From the NCBI GenBank assembly GCA_023135165.1, contig JAGLTS010000053.1:18373-82372 (forward strand): 64,000 bases of DNA, in the 5' to 3' direction. Made by a program: the position numbers and the translations under genes. Positions 10,407 through 63,289 of the stretch are shown in pieces. The DNA comes from Phycisphaerales bacterium (GTDB taxonomy: Bacteria; Planctomycetota; Phycisphaerae; Phycisphaerales; JAGLTS01). Position 1 is the stretch's first letter, and each line of letters opens with the position of its first letter. The notes under the pieces are model-generated. The model saw only the letters and a list, made by a program, of their open reading frames with translations, did no database searches and had not been told where the DNA came from.

Positions 10407-12389
10407 CTACGTGCCCGTGCCATAGACCGCCAGCAAAATGCCCAGGTCCGATTGATCCACATCGCCGTCGCCGTCGAGGTCGGCATCGTCGTTGTAGTGG
10501 GGATCGCCCGGCAGCAGATCATACGTCGCGAGCAGAATGCCCAAGTCCGACTGATCCACGTCGCCATCACCATCGAGATCGCCAAGGATAGTCCCCGCTG
10601 TACCGTGGATGATCAGCGACCAGTCGAGCCACGTCGCGATGTCGCCCGCCTTCTCATCGGAGATCGTGAGCGACCAGATGCCCTGCGACGATTCATCCCA
10701 ATGCCGGAAGCTCGTGAACAGGTATGCATTGAGATCATCCTGCGAGTCCTCGCGCGGCACAGTGAAGATCGACTCGGTTCCAGTCGGTGCTGTCAACACA
10801 ATGCGCAGGTCGCCGACGTAGGTTGTGGTCGCGTTCACAATGATCTCGACCGATTCGATATTGATCATGTCTTCCACGTCGATCGTGCTCATCACGCCGA
10901 CGGGATCGTTGTCCGGAAGGGCAACACCCACCAGTTGTGTGTGCTCGCAGGACAATTCCTCCGCCACGTTGGTCCACTCGGCTGCGAGCGCAACCGCTGC
11001 GCCGGCGTCGATCGCGCCGAACCCATAGTTATAGTTGACATCGCGCCCCGCTCCATTGACGACCCAGTCAACGTTCGTCGGGTCGTTCTTACGCGCGGAG
11101 TCGATCAGAACATGCTGCACATCGCGCCAGGTGAGATTCGGGTTGGCTTGGAGCATCAGCGCCACAGCCCCTGCGGCGAGCGGCGCGGCGGCGCTTGTGC
11201 CTCCGAAGCTCGACGTGTAATTGTTCCCTACCATGGTCGTATAGATCCCGCGGACGTTGCCCGATGTGTGCGTCACGACGAGCATTGACGATCCGGTCTC
11301 ATTGAAGTCGGATCGGTAGTCGAGATCGCCGATGCCGCCGATGCAGAGCGTGAATCGACTCGACGTGTACGGGTCGTAGTCGGTGCGGTCGTTATAGTCC
11401 GCGCCGTTGCCGCCCGCCCAGACGAAGATCTCGCCCAGACCGTCCCGCCCTGTCGCCGTCGCCTCCTCAAGGGCGGTGCGTTCGACTGATGACATCTCAG
11501 CGAGCAGGCCGAGATCCCACGGGCCCCACGAACTGGATTTCACATCGTTCAAGTCGTTGCGGTATCCGAATGCGTCGGCGTTCTGCTGATCGTTGCCGAA
11601 GTAGATGTTGGCGAGCTGCGCGCCGTGCGCGAGCCCGACGCCGCCCAGGCCGTTGTTGTCGACTGCTCCGATCACACCGGCGACGCTGGTGGCGTGGTTC
11701 GACGAACCGCCTGAACCTTGACTCGCCTCGGCGTTGAAGTTGCCCGCCAGATCCTCGTGGGTCGTCTGCCAGCCGCCTTCGATCACGGCGACGATGACGC
11801 CCGTGCCGTCGTACCCGGCGTTCCATGCATCCTCAGCATTCACATCGGCGATCGCCATGGTCGTATTGCGCAGATGCCATTGATTCGGAAACCCCGGATC
11901 GGTGGGCAGGTCTCGCAACGTCACCGGCTGCGCGATGCTGACGTAGCACTCAAGGACGCGATCGTCGCTCGCCAGCGCATCGGCCAAGCTGATCGCGCTC
12001 GCAACGGAGTCGCAGGAGGCGGCGTAAAAGCCAGGCGCCGCATCGATCGCCGTTACCTCCGTCGCGCCGCCGTGCGAGTTGACGACGAGCGTAGCAGGCT
12101 GCTCGTCAGACAGGCGGAAGATGACGACATCGGTGATCTCATAGCCGGCTGCAGGCACAGGCAATCGACCAAACTTATCAGCCAAGTCGGCATTCACGCG
12201 CTTTGCCTCGGCCGTGCGCGCCTCAAGCGCATCCACAGCGAACATCTCACGCCCGTGCGCTGTTCGGATCATCACCGACTTGTCAGACCCCAGGCCGTCC
12301 GCCGTGGCTTGTGCCGGTGAAACAGACAGCGCGAACCCCGCAAAAGCGATCGGAAGCAGCAACATGCTCCATCTCATGTGAGTACTCAT
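10407..12389 (-). CDS. Secreted S8 (subtilisin-like) peptidase with proprotein-convertase-like P domain and C-terminal dockerin-type repeats
   Basis: GVIVAVIEGGW, GSSNHATSVAGVIGA, SFGGTSAAAPLAAGAVALML; P-domain-like region VGDLRIVLTAPTGTESIF...GIWSLTISDEKAGD; tail GDLDGDGDVDQSDLGILLATYD...DADLDGDGDVDQSDLGILLAVYG. ATG at 12389 (MSTHMRWSMLLLPIAFAGFAL). Confidence 0.88.
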   Translation of the reverse strand: MSTHMRWSMLLLPIAFAGFALSVSPAQATADGLGSDKSVMIRTAHGREMFAVDALEARTAEAKRVNADLADKFGRLPVPAAGYEITDVVIFRLSDEQPATLVVNSHGGATEVTAIDAAPGFYAASCDSVASAISLADALASDDRVLECYVSIAQPVTLRDLPTDPGFPNQWHLRNTTMAIADVNAEDAWNAGYDGTGVIVAVIEGGWQTTHEDLAGNFNAEASQGSGGSSNHATSVAGVIGAVDNNGLGGVGLAHGAQLANIYFGNDQQNADAFGYRNDLNDVKSSSWGPWDLGLLAEMSSVERTALEEATATGRDGLGEIFVWAGGNGADYNDRTDYDPYTSSRFTLCIGGIGDLDYRSDFNETGSSMLVVTHTSGNVRGIYTTMVGNNYTSSFGGTSAAAPLAAGAVALMLQANPNLTWRDVQHVLIDSARKNDPTNVDWVVNGAGRDVNYNYGFGAIDAGAAVALAAEWTNVAEELSCEHTQLVGVALPDNDPVGVMSTIDVEDMINIESVEIIVNATTTYVGDLRIVLTAPTGTESIFTVPREDSQDDLNAYLFTSFRHWDESSQGIWSLTISDEKAGDIATWLDWSLIIHGTAGTILGDLDGDGDVDQSDLGILLATYDLLPGDPHYNDDADLDGDGDVDQSDLGILLAVYGTGT

Positions 12390-12435
12390 CAAGACCTCTC
12401 TCCAGAAAACCCGAACGTCGTAGCGCATCGAGTCG

Positions 12436-14652
12436 CTATGTGCCAATCCCGTAATATGCAAGCAGGATGCCGAGATCCTGCTGATCCACATCGCCATCAC
12501 CGTCCAAGTCCGCATCCGGATTCCAGTGCTGATGGTCATCGGGAAGGTCATACGTCGCGAGCAGAATGCCGAGATCCTGCTGATCGACATCGCCATCATT
12601 GTCGATGTCACCGGGGATGCCCGTCGTGACGCCGCCGAGGTAGATGACCAGTTCCAGACCGGTGATGCTCATATCGGTCCCATCGTCGCCGCTGCCGTCG
12701 AGGATACGCACGATCCATTCGCCATCCGGGCATTCATCCCAATGGCGGACGCTTGTAAAGACGAACGGCCCTTCGTAGTCGCCCTCATCATCGCGCGTCT
12801 CGGCAAGGAGCGATTCCGTTCCGGTCGGCGCGATCAGCTTGATCTCCAGATCGCCGCGATACCCACCTGTTGTCTCGATGTGCAGCTCGACGTGCTCGAC
12901 GATCTCGACAGGATCGACGTCGCAGTCCACGCCTTCGACGTCGATTTGCGCAATGAGTTCAAGCGGGGGATCTGCGGTGGGTACGCTCACAGGCGGGCCC
13001 TCCGGATCGACGATCAGCGAAGAGACGGTCGTGCTTGTGTCGCTTGTCAGCCCGGCGACGCCCCACAACGTGGCGCGCGCGGCGGCTGCGGCTGCGTCGA
13101 CCGCGCCGAAGCCATAGCTGTAGCTGATGTCGTGACCGGCTCCATTTGTTTCCCAAGGCGAGTCGCCGCCCTCACCGCCTGGGTCGTTCTTGCGAGCCGT
13201 GCGGACGAGGATGTGCTGCACATCGCGCCACGTCAGATCCGGATTCGCGTCGAGCATGAGCGCGACGACACCCGCCGCGAGTGGGGAAGCCGAGCTTGTC
13301 CCGCCGAACGAAGAGTAGTAGTCGCCGGATGTGTACCCATCGGAGCCGGTTGGATCGCATGTTGTGATGCCGCGCGACCCGCCGTTGGAATGTGCGCCGA
13401 CGAGGATGCTCGAACCTCGCACGCTATACCACGAGCGGATGTCGTCATCAGCGATAGCGCCGACGGTAATGACATAGCGCGAGGAGTTCAGCCCGCCGTA
13501 GTCAGCTCGGCCGTCCTGCATGTATCCGTTGCCCGCCGCGAAGCAGAAGATCACACCCTTGCCTGGGAGGATGCCGTCACCGCCCCGGCCCCACGTGATT
13601 GCCGTCTCAAGCCCCGCGCGCGCATACGGGTAGAGCGGCCGAACCCGCCATTCCTGGACCCGACCCCACGAGTTGTTCTTGATGTCGATCTCATCAACAT
13701 CATCTGGATCGAGCGGGTTGTTCCCGAACTCGAAGATCGTTTGGTAGTCCTCTTCATACAGCGGGCCGCCGAGCATACGCAATGCGCAGAAGTCCGCTGC
13801 GTACGCGGCGCCTCGGACGCCCCGGTCGTTCGCCCTCGCAGCCATCACGCCCGTCACGCACGTGCCGTGCCCTTCGTAACTGAACTCGTGGTCCGGGTTG
13901 TCATCCTCTTCGTTGAAGTCCCAACTGAGATCGGCGCGATAGAGCGGGTTTGGCGGATCGTCGTCATCGGCGAAGTCCTCGTGTTCCCAGTCCAAGCCGT
14001 CATCCACTGTGCAGACGATGACCGGGCCTTCCTCGCCGCCGTTGTCACCGTCAACGCCCACATCCCACGCGGCGCGGACGTTCGCGTCGATGTGCTCATC
14101 GCCTTCGACCGTGTTCTCGAGATGCCACTGGTCCACGTAGAGTGGGTCCTCAGGCTCATCCATCGGCGCTGCCGGGAAGGCGGAGCGGATGTAGGCGTAG
14201 CGAACCTGCGCATCGGCTGCGAGGCGGTCAGCGAGCGCCGCGGCAGCACGCACCGACTCGGCGGACACATCGTAGATGTCATCGTCGGCGAAGAGCGCTC
14301 GCACCGCACCCAGGTTGTGGCGCAGCGTGAACTGCTCGATGCCGATGCCTGGCAGCAGACGGAACATCACGCGATCAGTCAGGATGTACGTTCGGTGCCG
14401 CTCGGGGAGAGTTTGCTCAGCCGTCGTCCGGGCGACCTGCACAGCGGGACTGCTCGTTGCTGCACCATTCGCCACGTCGAACAGGATTGGCCCGTCCAAC
14501 GTCCGAACACGCAGTCGTAGCGGTGAGACCGAGACAAACGCCGCATCACCGGCCGGCACTGCGGATTGCTGATCGGCTGCGCCAACCGTTGCGGAAGCGG
14601 CAAGTGCGATCACGGCGGCGAGCGATCGGAAGCCCAGTCGCGTGCGTTTCAT
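12436..14652 (-). CDS. Secreted S8 (subtilisin-like) peptidase with P domain and C-terminal dockerin-type repeats (paralog of the adjacent gene)
   Basis: VIVCTVDDGLDWEHEDF, EGHGTCVTGVMAA, SSFGGTSSASPLAAGVVALML; tail GDIDNDGDVDQQDLGILLATYD...DADLDGDGDVDQQDLGILLAYYG. Confidence 0.88.
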   Translation of the reverse strand: MKRTRLGFRSLAAVIALAASATVGAADQQSAVPAGDAAFVSVSPLRLRVRTLDGPILFDVANGAATSSPAVQVARTTAEQTLPERHRTYILTDRVMFRLLPGIGIEQFTLRHNLGAVRALFADDDIYDVSAESVRAAAALADRLAADAQVRYAYIRSAFPAAPMDEPEDPLYVDQWHLENTVEGDEHIDANVRAAWDVGVDGDNGGEEGPVIVCTVDDGLDWEHEDFADDDDPPNPLYRADLSWDFNEEDDNPDHEFSYEGHGTCVTGVMAARANDRGVRGAAYAADFCALRMLGGPLYEEDYQTIFEFGNNPLDPDDVDEIDIKNNSWGRVQEWRVRPLYPYARAGLETAITWGRGGDGILPGKGVIFCFAAGNGYMQDGRADYGGLNSSRYVITVGAIADDDIRSWYSVRGSSILVGAHSNGGSRGITTCDPTGSDGYTSGDYYSSFGGTSSASPLAAGVVALMLDANPDLTWRDVQHILVRTARKNDPGGEGGDSPWETNGAGHDISYSYGFGAVDAAAAAARATLWGVAGLTSDTSTTVSSLIVDPEGPPVSVPTADPPLELIAQIDVEGVDCDVDPVEIVEHVELHIETTGGYRGDLEIKLIAPTGTESLLAETRDDEGDYEGPFVFTSVRHWDECPDGEWIVRILDGSGDDGTDMSITGLELVIYLGGVTTGIPGDIDNDGDVDQQDLGILLATYDLPDDHQHWNPDADLDGDGDVDQQDLGILLAYYGIGT

Positions 14653-48857: not shown

Positions 48858-49373
48858 TCAGGCGCGTCGCCTGCCGCGCACGGCCAATGCAGCGGCGCCG
48901 AGCAGGGCGAGCGTGCCGGGTGCGGGGATGGGGCCGGTGAAGTTCGAGATCTCAGCGACTCCCGCGCCGTTCATGCTGTCCACCGAAACGACGAACCAGC
49001 CGATCTTGTCGCCTGCGAGGACTTCTTCACTGACGCTGCCAAACGTGCCGGGTATGTCGCTGAGGTTGTACATCGTGTCACCGATGTAGTACCCGACCCA
49101 GTCCCATCCGGGATCGTCGATGGAGGAGTAGGCCCAGTCGAAGGAGAACGTCCCATCGGCGGCTGCTGCGATCGTAAAGCTCGCAACGTCCGTATAACCC
49201 GAGCCGTTGTCGCCTCCGGTGATCTCGATGCTCGCCGGAGCGCCGCTTGTGTCAACGGAACCCTCCCAGATCACCTCGAAGGTCCAGTTCTCCGGCGCAT
49301 ACACACCGCTGAAGTCCGCGTACGCAGCCCCGGCGAGGGACAGCGCGACAGCCGCTGCAAGTGTTCTTCCCAT
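48858..49373 (-). CDS. PEP-CTERM sorting-signal protein
   Basis: Signal MGRTLAAAVALSLAGAAYADFSG; C-terminus GPIPAPGTLALLGAAALAVRGRRRA. ATG at 49373. Confidence 0.8.
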   Translation of the reverse strand: MGRTLAAAVALSLAGAAYADFSGVYAPENWTFEVIWEGSVDTSGAPASIEITGGDNGSGYTDVASFTIAAAADGTFSFDWAYSSIDDPGWDWVGYYIGDTMYNLSDIPGTFGSVSEEVLAGDKIGWFVVSVDSMNGAGVAEISNFTGPIPAPGTLALLGAAALAVRGRRRA

Positions 49374-49518
49374 CAGGTATTCCCTTCCTTGCGATGCCAC
49401 ACGACAACATCGACATCGCAACCCGAGTCTACCGCGGAACGCGCAAAGGGCAAGTGGGAACTGGACACTCCGCTCCGATTCCGCGTCCCGCCCGCTGTGT
49501 CGCGTAGACTGGCCTGAT

Positions 49519-49866
49519 ATGGAGCGGAATGTGCACGCGGATGATGGAGCCGACCACGCTGAGTTCGTGAGCGAACCGATCCGACCCGAACCTGGGACGT
49601 TCGACACGACAGCGATGTCGCGCGCTGAGCCTGGGCTGCCTGGGCGGTTCACGTGGCGTGAGGCGCCCTACGAGGTCGCACAGGTGCTCGCCACCTGGAA
49701 GACGAGCAGCCTGAACATGGGCGAACTCTACCTGCGCAGGCACTGGTTCAAGATCGAGACGACGACCGGTGAGGTGATGACGCTGTACTGCGAACGGCAG
49801 GCGAGAAGCACCGCGGCGCGCAAGGCGCGCTGGTGGCTCTACTGCATCGACCGGGGCGATGAATGA
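49519..49866 (+). CDS. DUF6504-like small protein
   Basis: GRFTWREAPYEVAQVLATWKTSSLNMGELYLRRHWFKIETTTGEVMTLYCERQARSTAARKARWWLYCID. Confidence 0.65.
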   Translation: MERNVHADDGADHAEFVSEPIRPEPGTFDTTAMSRAEPGLPGRFTWREAPYEVAQVLATWKTSSLNMGELYLRRHWFKIETTTGEVMTLYCERQARSTAARKARWWLYCIDRGDE

Positions 49867-52992: not shown

Positions 52993-53949
52993 ATGCGACA
53001 GATGACAGATCAGACGATTCGCCCAGGCAGTCGGAACATGCGCCGTAAGCTGTCGACGATCACCGCGCTCGGGGTGCTCGCCGCCGGGGTGCTGCTCGTC
53101 GTCGGTGCATCGACCGGCCAGTATGACCATAACAGTAAGTCCTTGTGGGAGATGGAGTTCCCGTCGATCGCCATGCCCAGCCGGGACTTGGAGCTGAGTT
53201 TCGTCGCCCGCGGCAAGATCGACGTGGTGGCGGTGGAGCCTGAGCAGCGGGTCAGCAAGGGGCAGCTCCTGGTCCAGCTCGATGATCGCGTGCAGCGGCA
53301 GCAGACAAAGCTCGCTGAACTCGCCGCTTTGGATACATCGACGCTCGACGCAGCGGGCGCACGGCTCGACCGCGCCGAGCGCGAACTGGTTCGCATGGAG
53401 AAGGCCCAGCGCGAGGGCGGCGTCAACGAGCGGGAGGCGGATGACGCACGCACATCGCACGCGATCGGTCTGATCGAACTGGCGGGGGCGCAGCTTGAGG
53501 GCAGGCAGAACCGCGTCGTCTACGAGCGAGAGCGAGCCCGCCTCGACGAGATGCGCATCCTCTCGCCGATCGACGGCATCGTGGCGGACATCGTCCGTGA
53601 AGTGGGGGAGAGCGTCGAAGAGCTTCAGGTCGTCCTGCGCGTCGTCAACATTGACCCGCTCTGGCTGGATGTCGCCATCCCCGCTGGGTTCGCCCGGATC
53701 GTTCAGCCCGGCGGTGAAGCGGTCATCCGATGGCGAGACCTGCCCGACGAGCTGGAGGCAACAGGGACCATCCTGTCGGTCGCATCCGTCAGCGATCCAG
53801 CCTCCAGCACGATCCGTGTCCGGGTCGAAACACTGAATCCGACGCGCATCCCCGGCGGGCAGCACGTCCTCGTGCGTTTCATCCAGTCGGACGGCGATGA
53901 GTCGGAGGCGACGGCTGCGCGCAGCGGGCCGGCAAATTCGATACCGTGA
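52993..53949 (+). CDS. HlyD/RND periplasmic adaptor-like (membrane fusion) protein
   Basis: N-terminal TM; LELSFVARGKIDVVAVEPEQRVSKGQLLVQLDDRVQRQQ; RLDEMRILSPIDGIVADIVREVGESVEELQVVLRVVNIDPLWLDVAIP. Confidence 0.85.
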   Translation: MRQMTDQTIRPGSRNMRRKLSTITALGVLAAGVLLVVGASTGQYDHNSKSLWEMEFPSIAMPSRDLELSFVARGKIDVVAVEPEQRVSKGQLLVQLDDRVQRQQTKLAELAALDTSTLDAAGARLDRAERELVRMEKAQREGGVNEREADDARTSHAIGLIELAGAQLEGRQNRVVYERERARLDEMRILSPIDGIVADIVREVGESVEELQVVLRVVNIDPLWLDVAIPAGFARIVQPGGEAVIRWRDLPDELEATGTILSVASVSDPASSTIRVRVETLNPTRIPGGQHVLVRFIQSDGDESEATAARSGPANSIP

Positions 53950-54087
53950 CCGATCGCTCGTTCAGGCGCGTCCACCACGGGCTTGCCTGGGCGAGTGCTG
54001 TGATTCCAGAGCGGGTTGCCCGACTCGACCGCGACCCGCCTCAATGCAACCTATTGGCGTTCTTGCACCAGAAACGGAGCCTACCAG

Positions 54088-54441
54088 ATGGCCGAAACCA
54101 CACCTCCCACCGGCACAAACCCCCAACAGGCCGGCGAATCCCGCGAAATCCAGATCAAGGTGGATGAGAGCGACGTCACGAGCAACTATGCAAACACCAT
54201 CCGAACATCGACGACGTTCGAAGAGGTGATCCTCGACTTCGGTCTGAACATGCCCGTCGCCGGTCAGCAGAACCAGATGGTGTTCAAGGTGCACAACCAA
54301 GTCATCATGAACTGGGCCGGCGCCAAGCGCCTCGCGCTGAGCCTCAGCCAGCTCATCCGGGCACGTGAAGAGCGGTTCGGAGAGATCGAGTTGCAGCCGC
54401 CGGGTGTGGGCGCGCCTGCTGCTCAGGCCAAGAATGATTGA
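54088..54441 (+). CDS. DUF3467-like protein
   Basis: REIQIKVDESDVTSNYANTIRTSTTFEEVILDFGLN...VIMNWAGAKRLALSLSQLIRAREERFGEIEL. ATG at 54088. Confidence 0.75.
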   Translation: MAETTPPTGTNPQQAGESREIQIKVDESDVTSNYANTIRTSTTFEEVILDFGLNMPVAGQQNQMVFKVHNQVIMNWAGAKRLALSLSQLIRAREERFGEIELQPPGVGAPAAQAKND

Positions 54442-54472
54442 GAAGGCGTGAAGACCAGGACGGAGGCGGGCG

Positions 54473-56404
54473 GTGTGGCGCCGTCCTCGCCTCCGACATG
54501 TGAGCAATCGCGTGGACGAGCAGGCCGTCTCCATCACCGCGGCGACGCACAGTGCGCAGCACGAGCAGGAAGCCGCTGCCGGCATCGAAGCGTTCCTCGA
54601 GGACATGCTTAGTTGGCAGTGCAAGCTCGTCGGTGCTCTGGCGGGCGTCATCTATCTTCGCCCCACGCCCCAGCGTGAGGATGGCATCGCCGCGCGCTGG
54701 GCGGAGAGCCACGCAGGCCTGCTCGCGCCGCAGCACCTCGCCCGATACCAGCGCGTCGGTGCTCGCTGCGTCACGCAGGATGAATCCATCGTCGAGGACT
54801 TCGACTCCGGCGAAGGGCTCTACACCGGTTCATCCACCCATCACATCGTCTCATGCCCGCTTCGCTCCGCTCAGATCACCCACGGCGCGGTGATCGTCCT
54901 GCTCGCACACGCAGCCGATCCGGCAGGACCGGGCAACGCCATCGTCACGCTCGATCTGTCCAGCCGACAGTTCGAGGCGTTCATGTGGCGGCAGCAGTGT
55001 CTCGCCGAGGCCAAGGCCAAGGTGCAGCTTCGTGAGACGCTGGAGTTGCTCGACGCTGCCCAGCAAGGTGTGAACGCCGACACGATGGGCCAGCTCTTCT
55101 GCCGAGAGTTGGAGCGCCGTTTCGGCTGCACCCGCGTGTCGATCGGCCTGGTCAAGGGGCAGGCGATTCGGCTCGTCTCCGTCGGCAACACCGATGATCT
55201 GCACAAGCACTCCGCCGTCGCCGACTCACTCGAAGCCGTCATGGAGGAGTGTGCCGATCAGGATGTCGAGATCATCTACCCCCAGCCGCTTGGGCCGGAT
55301 GGCGCGATCGACCCGGGCGAGCGGCGCGTCACGTACGCCCATTCGCAGCACAGCGAGCGATTCGGGCCGTGCTCGCTCGCCAGCCTACCGCTGCGCGTGA
55401 CGGGTGATCTGGTCGGTGTCGTCATTCTCGAACGCGAGCAGGCGGACCCGTTCCCGCCCGGCGCGCTGCCGCTGTTGCGCCTCGTCGCTGAGTACATCGG
55501 CCCGGCGATGTGGACCCGCCGCCTCGCCGACCGCAAGGTGCTTGCCGTCTCACGCGATCGCTTCTTTGAACTCGGCGAAAAGCTCGTCGGCCCGCGCCAT
55601 ACCACGCTCAAGCTCGTCATCGCCGCATTCGTAATCGCGTTCATCGCCATGACGATCATCCCCGTCCCTAACCGCGTCGTGGCGGAGGGTTCGCTCAAGG
55701 CGCTCGCCATGCGCCAAATCCCGGCGCCGTTCGCGGCAACGCTCGCCGATGTGATGGTCAAGCCGGGCGACAGCGTGGCGGCCGGTGACATCCTCGGCAC
55801 GCTGGACACGCTTGAACTGGAGCTTCAGCTTGCGAGTACGCAGGCGGAACTGGCGGGGAAACGCACCGAACGCGACGCCGCGAAAGCGCAAGGCAAGCTG
55901 GCCGAGATGAAGATGGCAGCCGTCGAGGTTGACGCCCTCGAACAACGCGCTGCCCTCTTGACCGATCGGCTTGAGCGGTCCACATTGCGAGCGCCCATCG
56001 ATGGCGTCGTCACGAAGGGCGACCTGGATGAGTTCATCGGCGCACCCGTCGATCCCTCACAAGTGCTCTTTGAGGTCATGGACCTCACCGGCCTGCGTGT
56101 CATCATCGAAGTCGATGAGCGCGACATCCATCGCGTCGATGCCGATGACGTCGGCCGATTCACACCTGCGGGGAGTCCGGGGCGGCGCATTCCCATCCGT
56201 ATCATCAGCGTCGTTCCCGCAGCCACGGCCGTCGAGGAAGGTAACGTCTACCGCGCCGAAGCCGTCCTGCGCGACCCTGAGGATGCCGAGTACCTCCGGC
56301 CCGGCATGAGCGGGACCGTGCGAATCAACGACGGGTTCTCCAACACGCTCGGTATCTTAACTCGAAGACTCGTCGATGCGATCCGTATGAAGCTGTGGTG
56401 GTGA
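54473..56404 (+). CDS. GAF-like domain(s) + TM + HlyD/biotinyl-lipoyl-type adaptor protein
   Basis: GAF-like regions FGCTRVSIGLVKGQAIRLVSVGN...SLPLRVTGDLVGVVILER; TM LKLVIAAFVIAFIAMTIIPVPNRVVAEG; IPAPFAATLADVMVKPGDSVAAGDILGTLDTLELELQLA...RSTLRAPIDGVVTKGDLDEFIGAPVDPSQVLFEVMDL. Confidence 0.8.
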   Translation: MWRRPRLRHVSNRVDEQAVSITAATHSAQHEQEAAAGIEAFLEDMLSWQCKLVGALAGVIYLRPTPQREDGIAARWAESHAGLLAPQHLARYQRVGARCVTQDESIVEDFDSGEGLYTGSSTHHIVSCPLRSAQITHGAVIVLLAHAADPAGPGNAIVTLDLSSRQFEAFMWRQQCLAEAKAKVQLRETLELLDAAQQGVNADTMGQLFCRELERRFGCTRVSIGLVKGQAIRLVSVGNTDDLHKHSAVADSLEAVMEECADQDVEIIYPQPLGPDGAIDPGERRVTYAHSQHSERFGPCSLASLPLRVTGDLVGVVILEREQADPFPPGALPLLRLVAEYIGPAMWTRRLADRKVLAVSRDRFFELGEKLVGPRHTTLKLVIAAFVIAFIAMTIIPVPNRVVAEGSLKALAMRQIPAPFAATLADVMVKPGDSVAAGDILGTLDTLELELQLASTQAELAGKRTERDAAKAQGKLAEMKMAAVEVDALEQRAALLTDRLERSTLRAPIDGVVTKGDLDEFIGAPVDPSQVLFEVMDLTGLRVIIEVDERDIHRVDADDVGRFTPAGSPGRRIPIRIISVVPAATAVEEGNVYRAEAVLRDPEDAEYLRPGMSGTVRINDGFSNTLGILTRRLVDAIRMKLWW

Positions 56405-56456
56405 CGGCGACGCCACATTGGATTGATTGAACACCAACTGAGTTCACACGCGAGCC

Positions 56457-58616
56457 ATGGCACAGGTCCAGCCGACATTCAGCGATCAGTGGTATCGGGT
56501 GGCTGAAACCTGCCCGAGGCTCAGCATCCATCTCTCCATCCTGCGACAGGTCTATCGCGGCGAAGTCTGGTACATCGTTAAGAATCCCGCCACCGATCAG
56601 TACTATCGCTTCAACCCGTCCGCCTATATGTTCCTCGGCCTGCTCGACGGCGAGCACACCGTCGATTCCGCATGGGAGGCGTGTAACTCGCAGCTCGGCG
56701 ATGACGCCCCCACGCAACGCGAGTGCATCGAGCTGCTCTCGAAACTGCAACTGTTCGGCCTGTTGCGAGGCGAGCTGCCGCTCGAAGTGGACATGCTCAA
56801 GGAGCGGGCGCACGACATCCGCAAACGCCACTTCGAGCAGCTCACAGGCAAGTTCGTTTTCATGACGCTGCCGCTCATCAACCCGGAACGCTTTCTGCAG
56901 CGATACGAGAACGTCGGCAAATGGGTCTTCTCGCGATGGGGTTTTGTCTGCTGGCTGTTGCTCTTCATGACCGGCCTGATTCGCCTGATCCCACGACTCG
57001 GTGAGTTCGGCAGCGCATTCAACATGATCCTTGAGCCGCGCAACCTCATCTGGATGACCGTTATCTTCGTCGTCCTCAAGACGATCCACGAGTTTTCGCA
57101 CGCATTCGCCTGCAAAGCATACGGCGGGCGGGTCACGGAAATGGGCATCATGCTCATGCTCCTGCTCCCCATTCCGTACTGCAACGCCACGGATTCCTGG
57201 GGGTTCACGGCAAAAGCGAAGCGGGTCGGCGTCGCCGCTGCCGGGATGTACGGTGAGTTCGCCATCGCATCCGTCGCCGCCATCATCTGGTCGGTCACCG
57301 AACCCGGTGTGCTACACACCATCGCCTTCAACACGATCTTCATCGCATCCATCACGACGCTTCTTTTCAATCTTAACCCGCTGCTTCGATACGACGGCTA
57401 CTACATGCTCTCTGATCTGATCGAGGTGCCGAATCTCGCCAACCGATCTCAGGAGATGCTCAAGCATCTGATTAACAAGAAAGTCTTCGGCGTCAAGGAT
57501 CTGCGCGACCCGCACGTCAAGGATCTCAACGAACAGACCACGCTCGTCACGTACTCGCTCTGCTCGATGCCGTACCGCCTGCTTATTGTCACGGGCATTA
57601 TCATCGCTGTGACGTACCGGTATCCGGCGGTCGGCGTCGTCCTCGCGGTCCTTGGCATCGTGATGTGGTTGCTGTTCCCGATTGGGAAAGGTGTCACGTA
57701 TGTGCTCACATCGCACACGCTGCACCAAGTTCGACCGCGCGCGATCCTCATCAGTGGCGGCGCGTCACTGGCCGTCATCCTTCTCTTCGGTGTGATCCCC
57801 TGGCCGGCGCACGGGTACGCGACCGGTGTGGTCGAGCCTGTCGAACAGGCGACGCTGCGAACCGTCGAATCCGGATTCGTCGAGGAGATCCTCGTTGAGC
57901 CCGGCGATCGCGTCATCGCCGATCAAGTCATCGTGCGTCTTCGCAATGACGAACGAAGCAACGCGCTCAATGAAGCGCTCGCGCTCTATAATTCGCAGCG
58001 CATCCGCCTCGACGCCGCGGCCAGCTCGTCGCCCCTCGATCGCAACGTCGTCGAGCGGCAGCTCGAATCGGCCCGGCGAGCGTTCGAGACGGAACAAGAG
58101 CGCGCCGCCCGGCTCGTTATCGCAAGTCCCACGCCGGGCATGCTCATCGCACCGGACCTCCTCGACCTCCAGGGCGCGTTCCTTCAGGCGGGCGCTGAGA
58201 TCGCCCGCGTCGCCACGCTCGACGATCTCGTCGTGAAGGTGACCGTTGACGATCAACAGTTCGGTTGGCTCTTTCAGCGCGATCACACACCGACCGCTGC
58301 CATTCGCATTCGTGGGCGGGCGGGCACCGAGATCGACGCGACGATCGAGCGCGTCATCGAAGCGGGCCACCACGACCTGATCGCGCCGCAACTGTCATCG
58401 CGCGCGGGCGGTGAAGTGACGATGGACCCGACAGCCGGCGAGAACCCGCGCACGTTGCACCCGCAGTTTGTCATCATACTTCGCCCCGATGCTGACGATC
58501 TCTCGCTCGCTGCAGGGGCTCGCGTTCGCGTCCAGTTCACCAGCGGGTCGGAACCGCTGATGTACGGCTGGATTCGCAGGATCTATCAGTCCTTCCTTCA
58601 GAAGTTCCCCTGGTGA
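56457..58616 (+). CDS. PqqD-like domain + M50 site-2-protease-like domain + HlyD-like C-terminal domain
   Basis: PqqD-like N-terminus VWYIVKNPATDQYYRFNPSAYMFLGLLDGEHTVDSAWEACNSQ; KTIHEFSHAFACKAYGGRVTEMGIMLMLLLPIPYCNATDSWGF (HExxH); FNLNPLLRYDGYYMLSDLIEVPNL; C-terminal SGFVEEILVEPGDRVIADQVIVRLRNDE. Confidence 0.85.
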   Translation: MAQVQPTFSDQWYRVAETCPRLSIHLSILRQVYRGEVWYIVKNPATDQYYRFNPSAYMFLGLLDGEHTVDSAWEACNSQLGDDAPTQRECIELLSKLQLFGLLRGELPLEVDMLKERAHDIRKRHFEQLTGKFVFMTLPLINPERFLQRYENVGKWVFSRWGFVCWLLLFMTGLIRLIPRLGEFGSAFNMILEPRNLIWMTVIFVVLKTIHEFSHAFACKAYGGRVTEMGIMLMLLLPIPYCNATDSWGFTAKAKRVGVAAAGMYGEFAIASVAAIIWSVTEPGVLHTIAFNTIFIASITTLLFNLNPLLRYDGYYMLSDLIEVPNLANRSQEMLKHLINKKVFGVKDLRDPHVKDLNEQTTLVTYSLCSMPYRLLIVTGIIIAVTYRYPAVGVVLAVLGIVMWLLFPIGKGVTYVLTSHTLHQVRPRAILISGGASLAVILLFGVIPWPAHGYATGVVEPVEQATLRTVESGFVEEILVEPGDRVIADQVIVRLRNDERSNALNEALALYNSQRIRLDAAASSSPLDRNVVERQLESARRAFETEQERAARLVIASPTPGMLIAPDLLDLQGAFLQAGAEIARVATLDDLVVKVTVDDQQFGWLFQRDHTPTAAIRIRGRAGTEIDATIERVIEAGHHDLIAPQLSSRAGGEVTMDPTAGENPRTLHPQFVIILRPDADDLSLAAGARVRVQFTSGSEPLMYGWIRRIYQSFLQKFPW

Positions 58617-60658
58617 GTCTCGCATCACTTCCAATCCAGGAGACGCTCGACTTCGAGCTTGCCGCCGGCCGAGGACCTGGTACGCAAAGGCTCTGGCAAC
58701 CGCTGTCGTATCGCCCGCACCGGCGCCGTCTTCCCGAGGGTGCTGACAAGTTCGGCATGTGGCTGCTCGGCGCGGCGCATCGGCGACTGCTCAGCAGGCG
58801 CAAGCTGCGGGGCGTCGCGGATGAGGTCGTGCGCGAGTCCGATGCGATGACGACGCTCTCGGATCGCAACTTGAATCGGCGCATCGAGACGGTGCGGGAA
58901 GCGATCGTTCGCGGCAAGCACACGCATGAGGTTCTGGTCAATGCTTTCGCCGTCGTGCGCGAAGTCACGCGCCGTGAGATCGGCTTGTCGCTGTATCCCG
59001 TCCAGATCATGGGCGGTTGGGCGATGATGCGCAACCGATGCGTCGAGATGGCGACCGGCGAAGGCAAGACGATCACCGCATGTCTCACAGCGGCTGTGCT
59101 CGGCTGGAATCGGCGAGGCGTACATGTCGTGACGGTCAACGACTATCTCGCCCAGCGTGATGCGGAGACGACCGGGCCGATCTACAGGCGACTCGGTATG
59201 GATGTCGCTGCGATTCAGGACCAGACCGAGCCGCCCGAGCGCCGCGCGATCTATGCGGGCGATGTTATCTACGGCGCTGACAAACAGTTCATCTTCGACT
59301 ACCTCCGCGACCGCCTCGTCTCACCATTGCAGCCGAGGGTGTCCGGCCTGCTGCTTGAGGAACTCTCCAACACGCAGGGGGGCACGGCGAAGCTGTGGAC
59401 GACGCGCGTCGTGCAGCGGGGTCTCTACGCTGCCATCGTGGATGAAGCCGACAGCGTGCTCATCGACGAGGGCACCACGCCCGCGATCATCGGCGTCGAT
59501 ACGCATGAGAAAAACAGCAGTGGCGAGCACTACGCCGTCGCCGCCCAACTCGCCAAGGAACTCCACGTCGGCGCTGACTTCAAGATCGACTGGCAACGCC
59601 GACGCGTCGAGATGACCGACACAGGCCTGGTTAAGTTGGAGACCATCGCGGACCGCCTCCCCGCCTTCTGGGCCGGGCCTCGCCGGCGAGAAGAGCTTGT
59701 CACGCAAGCCCTCACCTCGCTGCACCTGTATCTCCTTGACGACCACTACATCGTTCGCGAAGGTGATATCCACATCGTCGATGTCCAGACCGGGCGCGTG
59801 CTCGAAGGCAGGCAGTGGCAACACGGATTGCATCAAGCCGTCCAAGCCAAGGAAGGGCTCGAAGTCACGACCGGCAGGCAAACCATGGCTCGTGTCAGTT
59901 ACGCCAGGTTCTTCCAGCTCTACCAGCACCTCGCGGGCATGACCGGAACCGCATGGGAAGTACGTGCCGAGTTATGGGCCAGCTACCGTTTGTCCGTCGT
60001 TCGTGTTCCAACCAATCAGCCTGTCATACGAACACAGGCGAGCGATCGCGTGTACATCGACATCGAGCGCAAGCTCCAGGCCGCTGCCGACTGCGTCGCC
60101 GGGCACTACGCGCAGGATCGGCCGGTCCTGCTCGGCACACGCTCCATCGAGACCTCCCAGCGCATGAGCGAGCTGATGGACGAGCGCAACGTCCCGCACG
60201 TCATCCTCAACGCGCATCATGAAGAGGAAGAGGCGCAGATCATCGCCAGGGCGGGCAAACGCGCCGCCATCACCGTCGCCACGAACATGGCCGGCCGAGG
60301 TACCGATATCAAACCTGAACCCAAGGTCGTCAGGGGCGGCGGCCTAGTCGTCATCGTTACCGAACGACACGACGAGGAACGCGTCGATCGACAGTTCTTC
60401 GGCAGAACCGGACGCCAGGGCGATCCCGGGCACGTCGAACCCTTCGTCAGCCTCGACGACCCGCTCATCCGAACGCACGGCTACACACCGCTTGTCCGGG
60501 CGCTTGGCCTGCATCCCGCGCTCGGCAGGTTCGGCGGACATCGGTTGCTCTGGTGGTGGTCGCAGAAACGTGCGGGTAAGAAGTCCCGCATCATCCGCGA
60601 CGCCGTCTCACGCCAGGATGCATGGGTCGATCGTTCGCTGCACCACGCCACGCGGTAG
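58613..60658 (+). CDS. SecA-like preprotein translocase ATPase, C-terminally shortened
   Basis: MATGEGKTITACLTAAV; VHVVTVNDYLAQRDAETTGPIYRRLGMDVAAIQ; VIYGADKQFIFDYLRDRL; AIVDEADSVLIDEGTTPAIIG; MTGTAWEV; TNMAGRGTDIKPEP; GRTGRQGDPGHVEPFVSLDD. GTG start overlaps the previous stop by 4 bp. Confidence 0.9.
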   Translation: MSLASLPIQETLDFELAAGRGPGTQRLWQPLSYRPHRRRLPEGADKFGMWLLGAAHRRLLSRRKLRGVADEVVRESDAMTTLSDRNLNRRIETVREAIVRGKHTHEVLVNAFAVVREVTRREIGLSLYPVQIMGGWAMMRNRCVEMATGEGKTITACLTAAVLGWNRRGVHVVTVNDYLAQRDAETTGPIYRRLGMDVAAIQDQTEPPERRAIYAGDVIYGADKQFIFDYLRDRLVSPLQPRVSGLLLEELSNTQGGTAKLWTTRVVQRGLYAAIVDEADSVLIDEGTTPAIIGVDTHEKNSSGEHYAVAAQLAKELHVGADFKIDWQRRRVEMTDTGLVKLETIADRLPAFWAGPRRREELVTQALTSLHLYLLDDHYIVREGDIHIVDVQTGRVLEGRQWQHGLHQAVQAKEGLEVTTGRQTMARVSYARFFQLYQHLAGMTGTAWEVRAELWASYRLSVVRVPTNQPVIRTQASDRVYIDIERKLQAAADCVAGHYAQDRPVLLGTRSIETSQRMSELMDERNVPHVILNAHHEEEEAQIIARAGKRAAITVATNMAGRGTDIKPEPKVVRGGGLVVIVTERHDEERVDRQFFGRTGRQGDPGHVEPFVSLDDPLIRTHGYTPLVRALGLHPALGRFGGHRLLWWWSQKRAGKKSRIIRDAVSRQDAWVDRSLHHATR

Positions 60659-62593: not shown

Positions 62594-63289
62594 TCAGGAT
62601 GTGTGTGGGCCGACCTTCGCGCCTCTCGGCCGACCGCGGGGACGGAGTGTGGATTCCAGCCCGAGCCGCGCCGCTGTGCGCTTGACCCATGCCGGGCTAC
62701 CGTACGGCGATCCGCGCTTGATGCTCCGCTGCACCGCTTCCAGTTCCTTCGCCCCCAGGGCGGCATTGACGCGCCTGACCCAGCCGCGCGGGCGATCAAT
62801 CGGCCAACCGGACAGCGCGGGCGCGTCGTCACCGCAGGGGCCGTTCACGTGCAACCACAGACTTGACCAAGGCCAGTCCTGCGCACGATTCACCAGTCCC
62901 GCATGCAACGCGTTCCGCTCGACGTGGCGACACACCGTTATGAAATGCTCATCCCGTTGAATGAGGAAGGACTTGAAACGTCCTTGATAGAGACGACCGT
63001 CGCCGACCGCACGCCGATGCGCGCGCCACCGCTGGGTGTGCGTCAGCGTCAGCCAACCTACAAAACGCGACAGATCACCATCGCGGCGAGGCCGGACGAT
63101 CAGGTGCCAGTGATCCGGCATGAGGCAATACGCGCACAGTCGCATGCTCGCGAACTCGACCGCCTCCGCCAGCACCTGCTCAAACGCCTCGTAGTCCGCA
63201 TCATCCTCGAACAACATCATGCCCGCGCTACTGCGATTGAGCACGTGATACACCATGCCGCCGGGCGCAATTCGGTTCGGTCGTCCCAT
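62594..63289 (-). mobile_element. REP-associated tyrosine transposase (RAYT, Y1/HUH family)
   Basis: MGRPNRIAPGGMVYHVLNRSSAGMMLFEDDADYEAFEQVL...LMPDHWHLIVRPRRDGDLSRFVGWLTLTHTQRWR...GRLYQGRFKSFLIQRDEHFITVCRHVERNALHAGLV; HxH in 'HWHLIV'. Confidence 0.9.

Follow-up and report, generated by a model that had tools for sequence, protein, structure and literature searches.

A secondary SecA_DEAD/M50-HlyD gene cluster of a Phycisphaerales bacterium and its likely link to giant proteins with an N-terminal LEPR-XLL motif

The closest described relative of the gene cluster treated here is the secondary SecA_DEAD / type I secretion system (T1SS)-related conserved locus of Kamneva, Poudel and Ward 2015 (PLoS One, PMC4452313). 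Its gene set comprises a SecA_DEAD protein without wing-scaffold, an M50 protein with a HlyD part, a GAF-HlyD protein, a further HlyD protein and sometimes an outer-membrane efflux protein (OEP), with a reported spread over Planctomycetes, Verrucomicrobia, Proteobacteria and Nitrospirae. It was already proposed there that the SecA ATPase and the M50 protein stand in for an ATP-binding cassette (ABC) transporter, and the broader role of the module was called completely unknown; the main text names neither a LEPR motif nor a substrate protein. The present cluster occupies positions 52993-60658 of a 64,000-nucleotide stretch of DNA from a Phycisphaerales bacterium (GenBank assembly GCA_023135165.1, contig JAGLTS010000053.1; the whole stretch is called the window) and consists of five plus-strand open reading frames (ORFs), namely HlyD, DUF3467, GAF-HlyD, PqqD-M50-HlyD and a truncated SecA. 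With a wing-scaffold-free SecA_DEAD gene and adjacent M50-HlyD, GAF-HlyD and HlyD genes, it is a member of the published module, so the description as an undescribed system in an earlier note on this DNA does not hold. What is new is the link to a substrate. Further additions to the published picture are the invariance of the catalytic site, the PqqD domain, DUF3467 as a member, a second subfamily beside which no SecA-like gene was detected, and a wider taxonomic range.

The candidate substrates are proteins with the LEPR-XLL domain (NCBIfam NF012209, LEPR-8K). LEPR-XLL is a domain label, and the two papers found to use the term assign neither a function nor a transporter to it. The cluster probably serves as a machine dedicated to exporting and maturing large surface proteins in which this domain forms an N-terminal leader. 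The functional link between the module and LEPR proteins is well supported and a mechanism can be inferred; the module may be required for their export or cleavage. The module, without an explained role since 2015, and the orphan sorting motif borne by some of the largest proteins in bacteria seem to belong to one pathway as its two halves. If true, a SecA-driven route with its own N-terminal code would be added to the Gram-negative ways of bringing very large proteins to the surface. No earlier account of the LEPR link, of the second subfamily with its own motif dialect or of the PqqD reading was found in the open-licence PMC literature searched, and the searched passages of three papers on giant bacterial proteins (PMC11573180, PMC6461901 and PMC12288469) mention neither the machine nor the LEPR motif.

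In relatives, giant ORFs adjoining the cluster start with FEPLEPRVLLSA, LETLEPRVLLTT and LESLEDRVLLSG, i.e. with the LEPR-XLL domain. Taking NF012209 at E<=0.01 as a LEPR match, 52 of the 64 genomes with the module in a sample of 101 genomes of the same order encode LEPR proteins, compared to none of the 37 without it (Fisher, 1.7e-17, uncorrected for kinship and hence overstating independence). One of the 52 (G065), the sole module carrier in its family, also has a LEPR ORF of 7994 codons. Among 369 Gammaproteobacteria genomes the M50-HlyD gene was detected in 57, LEPR in 34 and both in 30, so that LEPR occurs in 30/57 genomes with the module and in 4/312 without (Fisher, 4e-24, again uncorrected for kinship and with independence overstated). 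For this sample three candidates per genome were scored for M50-HlyD and some of these genes may be missed. Across the samples, many genomes are fragmented. In a cross-phylum sample of 47 genomes, picked only for the module, LEPR proteins were found in 37, and three more carry a sub-threshold LEPR ORF on the same stretch.

The two are also close to each other on the chromosome. Where both are present, a LEPR gene lies within 20 kb of the M50-HlyD gene in 40 of 67 genomes, and 39 of the 45 such genes are on the same strand (gene ends being placed by ORF length). The motif was sought in the best 80 of at least 600 candidate stretches, which came from a scan of GTDB species genomes; 11 long ORFs matched near the N-terminus, and none did when the same ORFs were reversed. 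The consensus of the proposed substrates is [FL]E-x-LE-P-R-x-LLS-[AG] in a basic N-terminus (median net charge +6.5). Among 72 LEPR N-termini, just two have a strongly hydrophobic stretch of 12 residues before the motif; being basic and, in the other 70, without such a segment, they are unlike Sec signal peptides. It is improbable that LEPR giants and the module merely reflect a common lifestyle, with large genomes and surface attachment, and pass on together by descent or transfer. The two are distributed patchily and can move between phyla, and the counts are uncorrected for relatedness, but tight same-strand adjacency in 40 genomes is not expected of a lifestyle correlation, and neither is a matched change of motif and M50-HlyD subfamily.

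Such a matched change is observed in a second, weaker-scoring M50-HlyD subfamily (~290-320 bits), which was examined in Gammaproteobacteria genomes. Its loci (L343-L348 and L352, mostly Gammaproteobacteria) contain HlyD, GAF-HlyD-type and M50-HlyD genes in a row; a SecA-like gene was not detected on the stretches examined. A TolC/OEP gene was confirmed by Pfam in one locus, and TolC-like ORFs are visible in others. The giants encoded there start with LLALEPRLLFDGAA, ALEPRLLYDGAA, MLALEPRLMFDAAA, MLALEPRILLDGAA, LQALEPRIMLDAAA, LLALEPRLMFDAAA and IWQLEPRFMFDGAA. Their motif is ALEPRx[LM][FLY]D[GA]A (e.g. ALEPRxLFDGAA), in contrast to the LEPRxLLSA of the first subfamily: D-G/A-A replaces S-A/G. 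One second-subfamily locus is an exception and carries VEVLETRLLYSAD instead (G442). Motif and M50-HlyD protease vary together, as would be expected if the motif is recognised by the M50-HlyD protein and not by the SecA-like motor.

The genome of the window itself carries a divergent form of the motif that falls under the family cut-off. NF012209 gave nothing over cut-off there, and a loose threshold returned one real-looking match (C34) besides noise. With a model based on 40 LEPR sequences taken from other genomes, at least nine large ORFs (~500-3400 codons) were found to carry the lineage form LExLExRRLL in the N-terminal region, ~20-110 codons from the opening of the frame. Their motifs are LEALEARRLLST, FEPLEARRLLS, IETLESRRLLDAT, LEPLEARRLLSG, LERLEDRRLLNG, FESLEARRLLTV, VEALESRRMLTV, LERLEERRLLSV and IEPLEDRRLLAG; an additional one, FEPLEDRRLLAA, lies in a frame truncated close to the end of its contig. 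The four LEPR-like ORFs that were scanned contain Ig-like, PKD, FG-GAP, CARDB or cyclophilin domains. The same model yielded an N-terminal match in six module-positive genomes that were previously matchless (G004, G009, G016, G051, G063 and, weakly, G088), and none in the module-positive G041 (85% complete). In module-free genomes the best matches inspected were internal (e.g. SDIHVEPMEDRVLL, some 270 residues into its ORF) or belonged to very short ORFs. A first DNA pattern for this genome, with a hydrophobic residue after LExR, performed at chance level (8 matches vs 7 in the backward control) and was unsuited because the lineage carries R at that position.

The module is conserved as a unit. 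Within the order, a strong M50-HlyD gene is found in 63 of the 101 genomes and the truncated SecA in exactly those same 63; 64 of the 73 strong M50-HlyD genes sit directly upstream (<400 nt) of a SecA-like gene. From this adjacency and the identical set of genomes it follows that the arrangement is not due to chance. The best 80 loci are spread over Planctomycetota, Verrucomicrobiota, Kiritimatiellae, Lentisphaerae, Omnitrophota, Nitrospirota, Desulfobacterota, Rokubacteria and Alpha-, Beta- and Gammaproteobacteria; in almost all of these loci, GAF-HlyD, M50-HlyD and SecA-like genes follow one another, with another HlyD gene near. Carriers include Methylobacterium extorquens AM1 (META1p2399-2402, according to PMC4452313) and Methylomonas sp. 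LW13 (L195). The range thus covers at least Planctomycetota, Verrucomicrobiota, Omnitrophota, Nitrospirota, Desulfobacterota and Pseudomonadota. The earlier note had reasoned that a SecA-like gene standing apart from the M50 and HlyD genes in relatives would speak against a single export and processing system; the opposite was found, in support of one system. The same synteny refutes the idea of a common efflux or T1SS adaptor cluster that happens to have a SecA-like gene next to it. Practically no weight can be given to this idea even though HlyD1 by itself scores over the RND_mfp cut-off: SecA-like and M50-HlyD genes also travel together across phyla.

Eight genomes of the same order (G001, G006, G011, G061, G064, G067, G073 and G079) hold two M50-HlyD/SecA-like pairs at separate loci, and each copy may serve different LEPR clients. 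A SapC-family gene stands beside the module in seven proteobacterial loci (L143, L160, L163, L177, L179, L191 and L196; PF07277 confirmed in L163). The name SapC derives from an S-layer export locus.

The PqqD-M50-HlyD protein is the most plausible membrane core of the module, as the earlier note had supposed. For the window protein alone, the Pfam scores are below the cut-offs for both PqqD (21.9 bits, cut-off 23.4) and Peptidase_M50 (16.8 bits, cut-off 27.2). Among 13 aligned homologues, however, PqqD was matched in 11 and M50 in 12, and both labels are secure by homology. H211, E212 and H215 together with a downstream N305-x-NPL...D313-x-Y315 (NPxxxxD-Y) are identical in 81/81 homologues from several phyla. 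The protein thereby has the hallmarks of an M50 (site-2) protease: HExxH and a downstream Asp ligand, in a core of predicted helices. In the AlphaFold model (mean predicted local distance difference test, pLDDT, 81) an N-terminal beta-beta-beta-alpha-alpha-alpha unit is followed by a helical membrane core and a MexA/MacA-like adaptor. Fold and profile both match a PqqD domain of the RiPP recognition element (RRE) type, RiPP standing for ribosomally synthesized and post-translationally modified peptide; such a domain may bind the leader. The Foldseek matches listed for the model were HlyD adaptors only, with no PDB match listed for the membrane core.

The N-terminal half is closest to the daptide metalloprotease model, which spans residues 40-403 with 174 bits. 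The daptide and epipeptide intramembrane metalloproteases (NF041824, NF058609) share the PqqD-like plus M50 architecture in this region, whereas the window protein stays under the 300-bit cut-off, is fused to a HlyD adaptor and has no RiPP genes nearby. Leader peptides are cut in the pathways of daptide-type metalloproteases. Given the same fusion of PqqD to an intramembrane zinc protease, it is proposed that PqqD captures the leader and M50 cleaves it. The likeness to the daptide model, and weakly to YydH/LiaK, could also be taken to mean that PqqD-M50 processes a small modified peptide as in daptide and epipeptide pathways, with the HlyD proteins exporting it. This is very improbable: the scores lie under the curated cut-offs (174 of 300; 32 of 225), families of radical-SAM, dehydrogenase or precursor genes do not recur around the loci, and what does recur there is a giant repeat protein. 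A search of 20 order-level and the best 80 cross-phylum neighbourhoods for a small conserved partner or a RiPP precursor found neither; these yielded only core genes, giant ORFs, OEP genes (11 loci) and SapC (7 loci).

The SecA-like protein retains Walker A (the Walker motifs are intact), DEAD box, preprotein-binding domain and the second nucleotide-binding domain (NBD2), and then ends. Its match to solved SecA stops at residue 555 of the 783-residue chain, and the helical scaffold, wing and two-helix finger are absent. The AlphaFold model is moderate (pLDDT 68) and was not used for a fold search. A full-length SecA ORF of 1364 aa is also encoded in this genome (G000, contig C13). In having a second SecA beside the canonical one the genome resembles accessory SecA2 systems; the protein, however, stops after NBD2 and scores far below the SecA2 cut-offs (TIGR03714, 466 of 930 bits; TIGR04397, 519 of 1085 bits) and does not belong to SecA2. 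No second SecY family was found among the recurrent neighbours on clustering the 80 loci.

The adaptors resemble those of type I secretion (HlyB-HlyD-TolC) and of the MacAB/RND (resistance-nodulation-division) tripartite pumps, both in their HlyD/MexA/MacA type and in the OEP channel of some loci. In contrast to these systems, a conserved ABC, RND or MFS (major facilitator superfamily) pump is missing, its place being taken by a SecA-type ATPase together with an intramembrane protease. The presumed signal is N-terminal, not C-terminal as in type I secretion. The window cluster contains no ABC gene and none is conserved across the neighbourhoods, so the ABC, HlyD and TolC set that defines type I secretion is incomplete. 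Neither is the cluster a catalogued defence system, since PADLOC gave no match.

Whether the module moves the LEPR proteins at all is the point on which the strongest rival differs. According to this rival, the module would mature or retain LEPR proteins without translocating them: M50-HlyD and GAF-HlyD would only clip the leader, or anchor or release the protein at the surface, the SecA-like protein would be an unfoldase or disaggregase, and the crossing would be left to canonical Sec or an ABC-type T1SS. The missing finger, scaffold and wing agree with it, as do the second subfamily, paired with LEPR-type proteins while no SecA-like gene was detected beside it, and a reported Vibrio LEPR-XLL giant with RTX domains at the C-terminus, as is typical of T1SS substrates (PMC10868602). 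Nevertheless it is judged unlikely. A hydrophobic region of the Sec type is missing from the LEPR N-termini, the loci contain OEP/TolC and several HlyD adaptors as expected of a conduit, and no ABC transporter is conserved, with a single small ABC-ATPase family in 5/80 loci.

For the preferred reading, an export and maturation machine, the following course can be proposed. The giant protein would be made with a basic N-terminus and the LEPR motif, both apparent in the predicted proteins, where a Sec signal peptide would otherwise stand. Its leader would be captured by the PqqD-like domain of M50-HlyD, as PqqD-type domains capture RiPP leaders, and the zinc site of M50, intact in the sequence, would cut it in or near the membrane. 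The truncated SecA ATPase would then drive the chain, unfolded, along a path across the inner membrane that M50-HlyD provides, possibly with GAF-HlyD. Finally, the three HlyD-type proteins, all of which are encoded in the cluster, would bridge to a TolC-type outer-membrane channel, whose gene adjoins the cluster in some relatives and has another location in others. The suggestions of the earlier note that the SecA-like protein is the motor and that the substrate is encoded outside the window fit this course: the former is likely, and no LEPR gene is present in the window. Its substrate without a name has been replaced by a specific candidate, the LEPR-XLL proteins. More tentatively, and with somewhat less than even confidence, the module may represent a distinct Gram-negative secretion pathway in which a truncated SecA takes the place of the ABC transporter, giant LEPR proteins are exported in one step via M50-HlyD, HlyD and TolC, PqqD reads and M50 cuts the leader, and two lineages read two dialects.

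Several observations weigh against these proposals. About half of the module-bearing Gammaproteobacteria are without a LEPR match at the threshold, which is explained in part by the variant motif. Conversely, four Gammaproteobacteria have LEPR and no detected M50-HlyD gene, although two of these matches are tiny ORFs and three candidates per genome were scored. Each LEPR-like match in the genome of the window is weak when taken singly (E 0.001-0.5), and the window, at 64 kb, holds no LEPR gene. The evidence joining LEPR proteins to the module is correlational throughout, and related genomes are not independent data. SecA acts on SecY through its two-helix finger. The SecA-like protein is without it, so "motor" is meant by analogy.

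Table 1. Coordinates of the gene run and of its main features in the window
Feature	Position	Strand	Basis
HlyD-family periplasmic adaptor (HlyD1), single N-terminal hydrophobic segment (hydropathy)	52993..53949	+	PF16576 56.4 bits, PF13437 46.9 bits, RND_mfp above cut-off
DUF3467 protein, recurring module member	54016..54441	+	PF11950 60.9 bits; in a subset of loci, several phyla
GAF-HlyD: cytoplasmic GAF region, one transmembrane segment near residues 381-399, HlyD region	54473..56404	+	GAF_2, HlyD_3 above cut-off; conserved neighbour
PqqD-M50-HlyD protein; proposed leader receptor, protease and membrane core	56457..58616	+	Profiles, homologue alignment, AlphaFold model, Foldseek
PqqD-like (RRE-type) domain, ~residues 20-105 of M50-HlyD protein	56514..56771	+	PF05402 21.9 bits; 11/13 homologues; model with 3 strands then 3 helices
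HExxH zinc motif, residues 211-215 of M50-HlyD protein	57087..57101	+	Identical in 81/81 homologues across phyla
HlyD/MexA-like adaptor part of M50-HlyD protein, ~residues 448-700	57798..58556	+	PDB profile matches MacA/MexA/AcrA; Foldseek E ~1e-11
Secondary SecA_DEAD protein, 681 aa: NBD1, preprotein-binding domain, NBD2	58613..60658	+	SecA_DEAD, SecA_PP_bind, P-loop_SecA domains; alignment to solved SecA
Walker A MATGEGKT, residues 146-153 of SecA-like protein	59048..59071	+	A147-T153 invariant in alignment A2

The layout of the run (Table 1) is as the earlier note had given it, with five plus-strand genes separated by short gaps (66, 31 and 52 nt) and a 4-bp overlap between genes 4 and 5. 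HlyD_D23/HlyD_3 are over the Pfam cut-off in genes 1, 3 and 4, as is DUF3467 in gene 2. The run is flanked by unrelated housekeeping genes (dtd, an ICMT/PEMT-like methyltransferase gene and gcvT). The ORF list and a Pfam scan revealed no OEP gene among the genes near the run, as is allowed by the published loci, where OEP is optional. The earlier remark that no pump or TolC is nearby is accordingly right for the window copy; in the best 80 loci, a TolC-like OEP gene adjoins the cluster in 11, mostly of the PVC (Planctomycetes-Verrucomicrobia-Chlamydiae) group. The GAF part and DUF3467 are probably regulatory. DUF3467 accompanies the module in other genomes too: in L081 and L086 it is located downstream of the SecA-like gene, sometimes adjoining it where the module is split in two.

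Elsewhere in the window, a small secreted-looking protein (48858-49652, minus strand) has at its end a PEP-CTERM-like tail (PAPGTLALLGAAALAVRGRRRA), which is a sorting signal of another kind in this genome. An ORF at 62594-63289 (minus strand) resembles, by eye, a REP-associated (IS200-like) transposase. Two overlapping long ORFs at 10407-14652 (minus strand) look by eye like two subtilase-type proteases in tandem, with dockerin-like DGDVDQ repeats at the C-terminal end of both.

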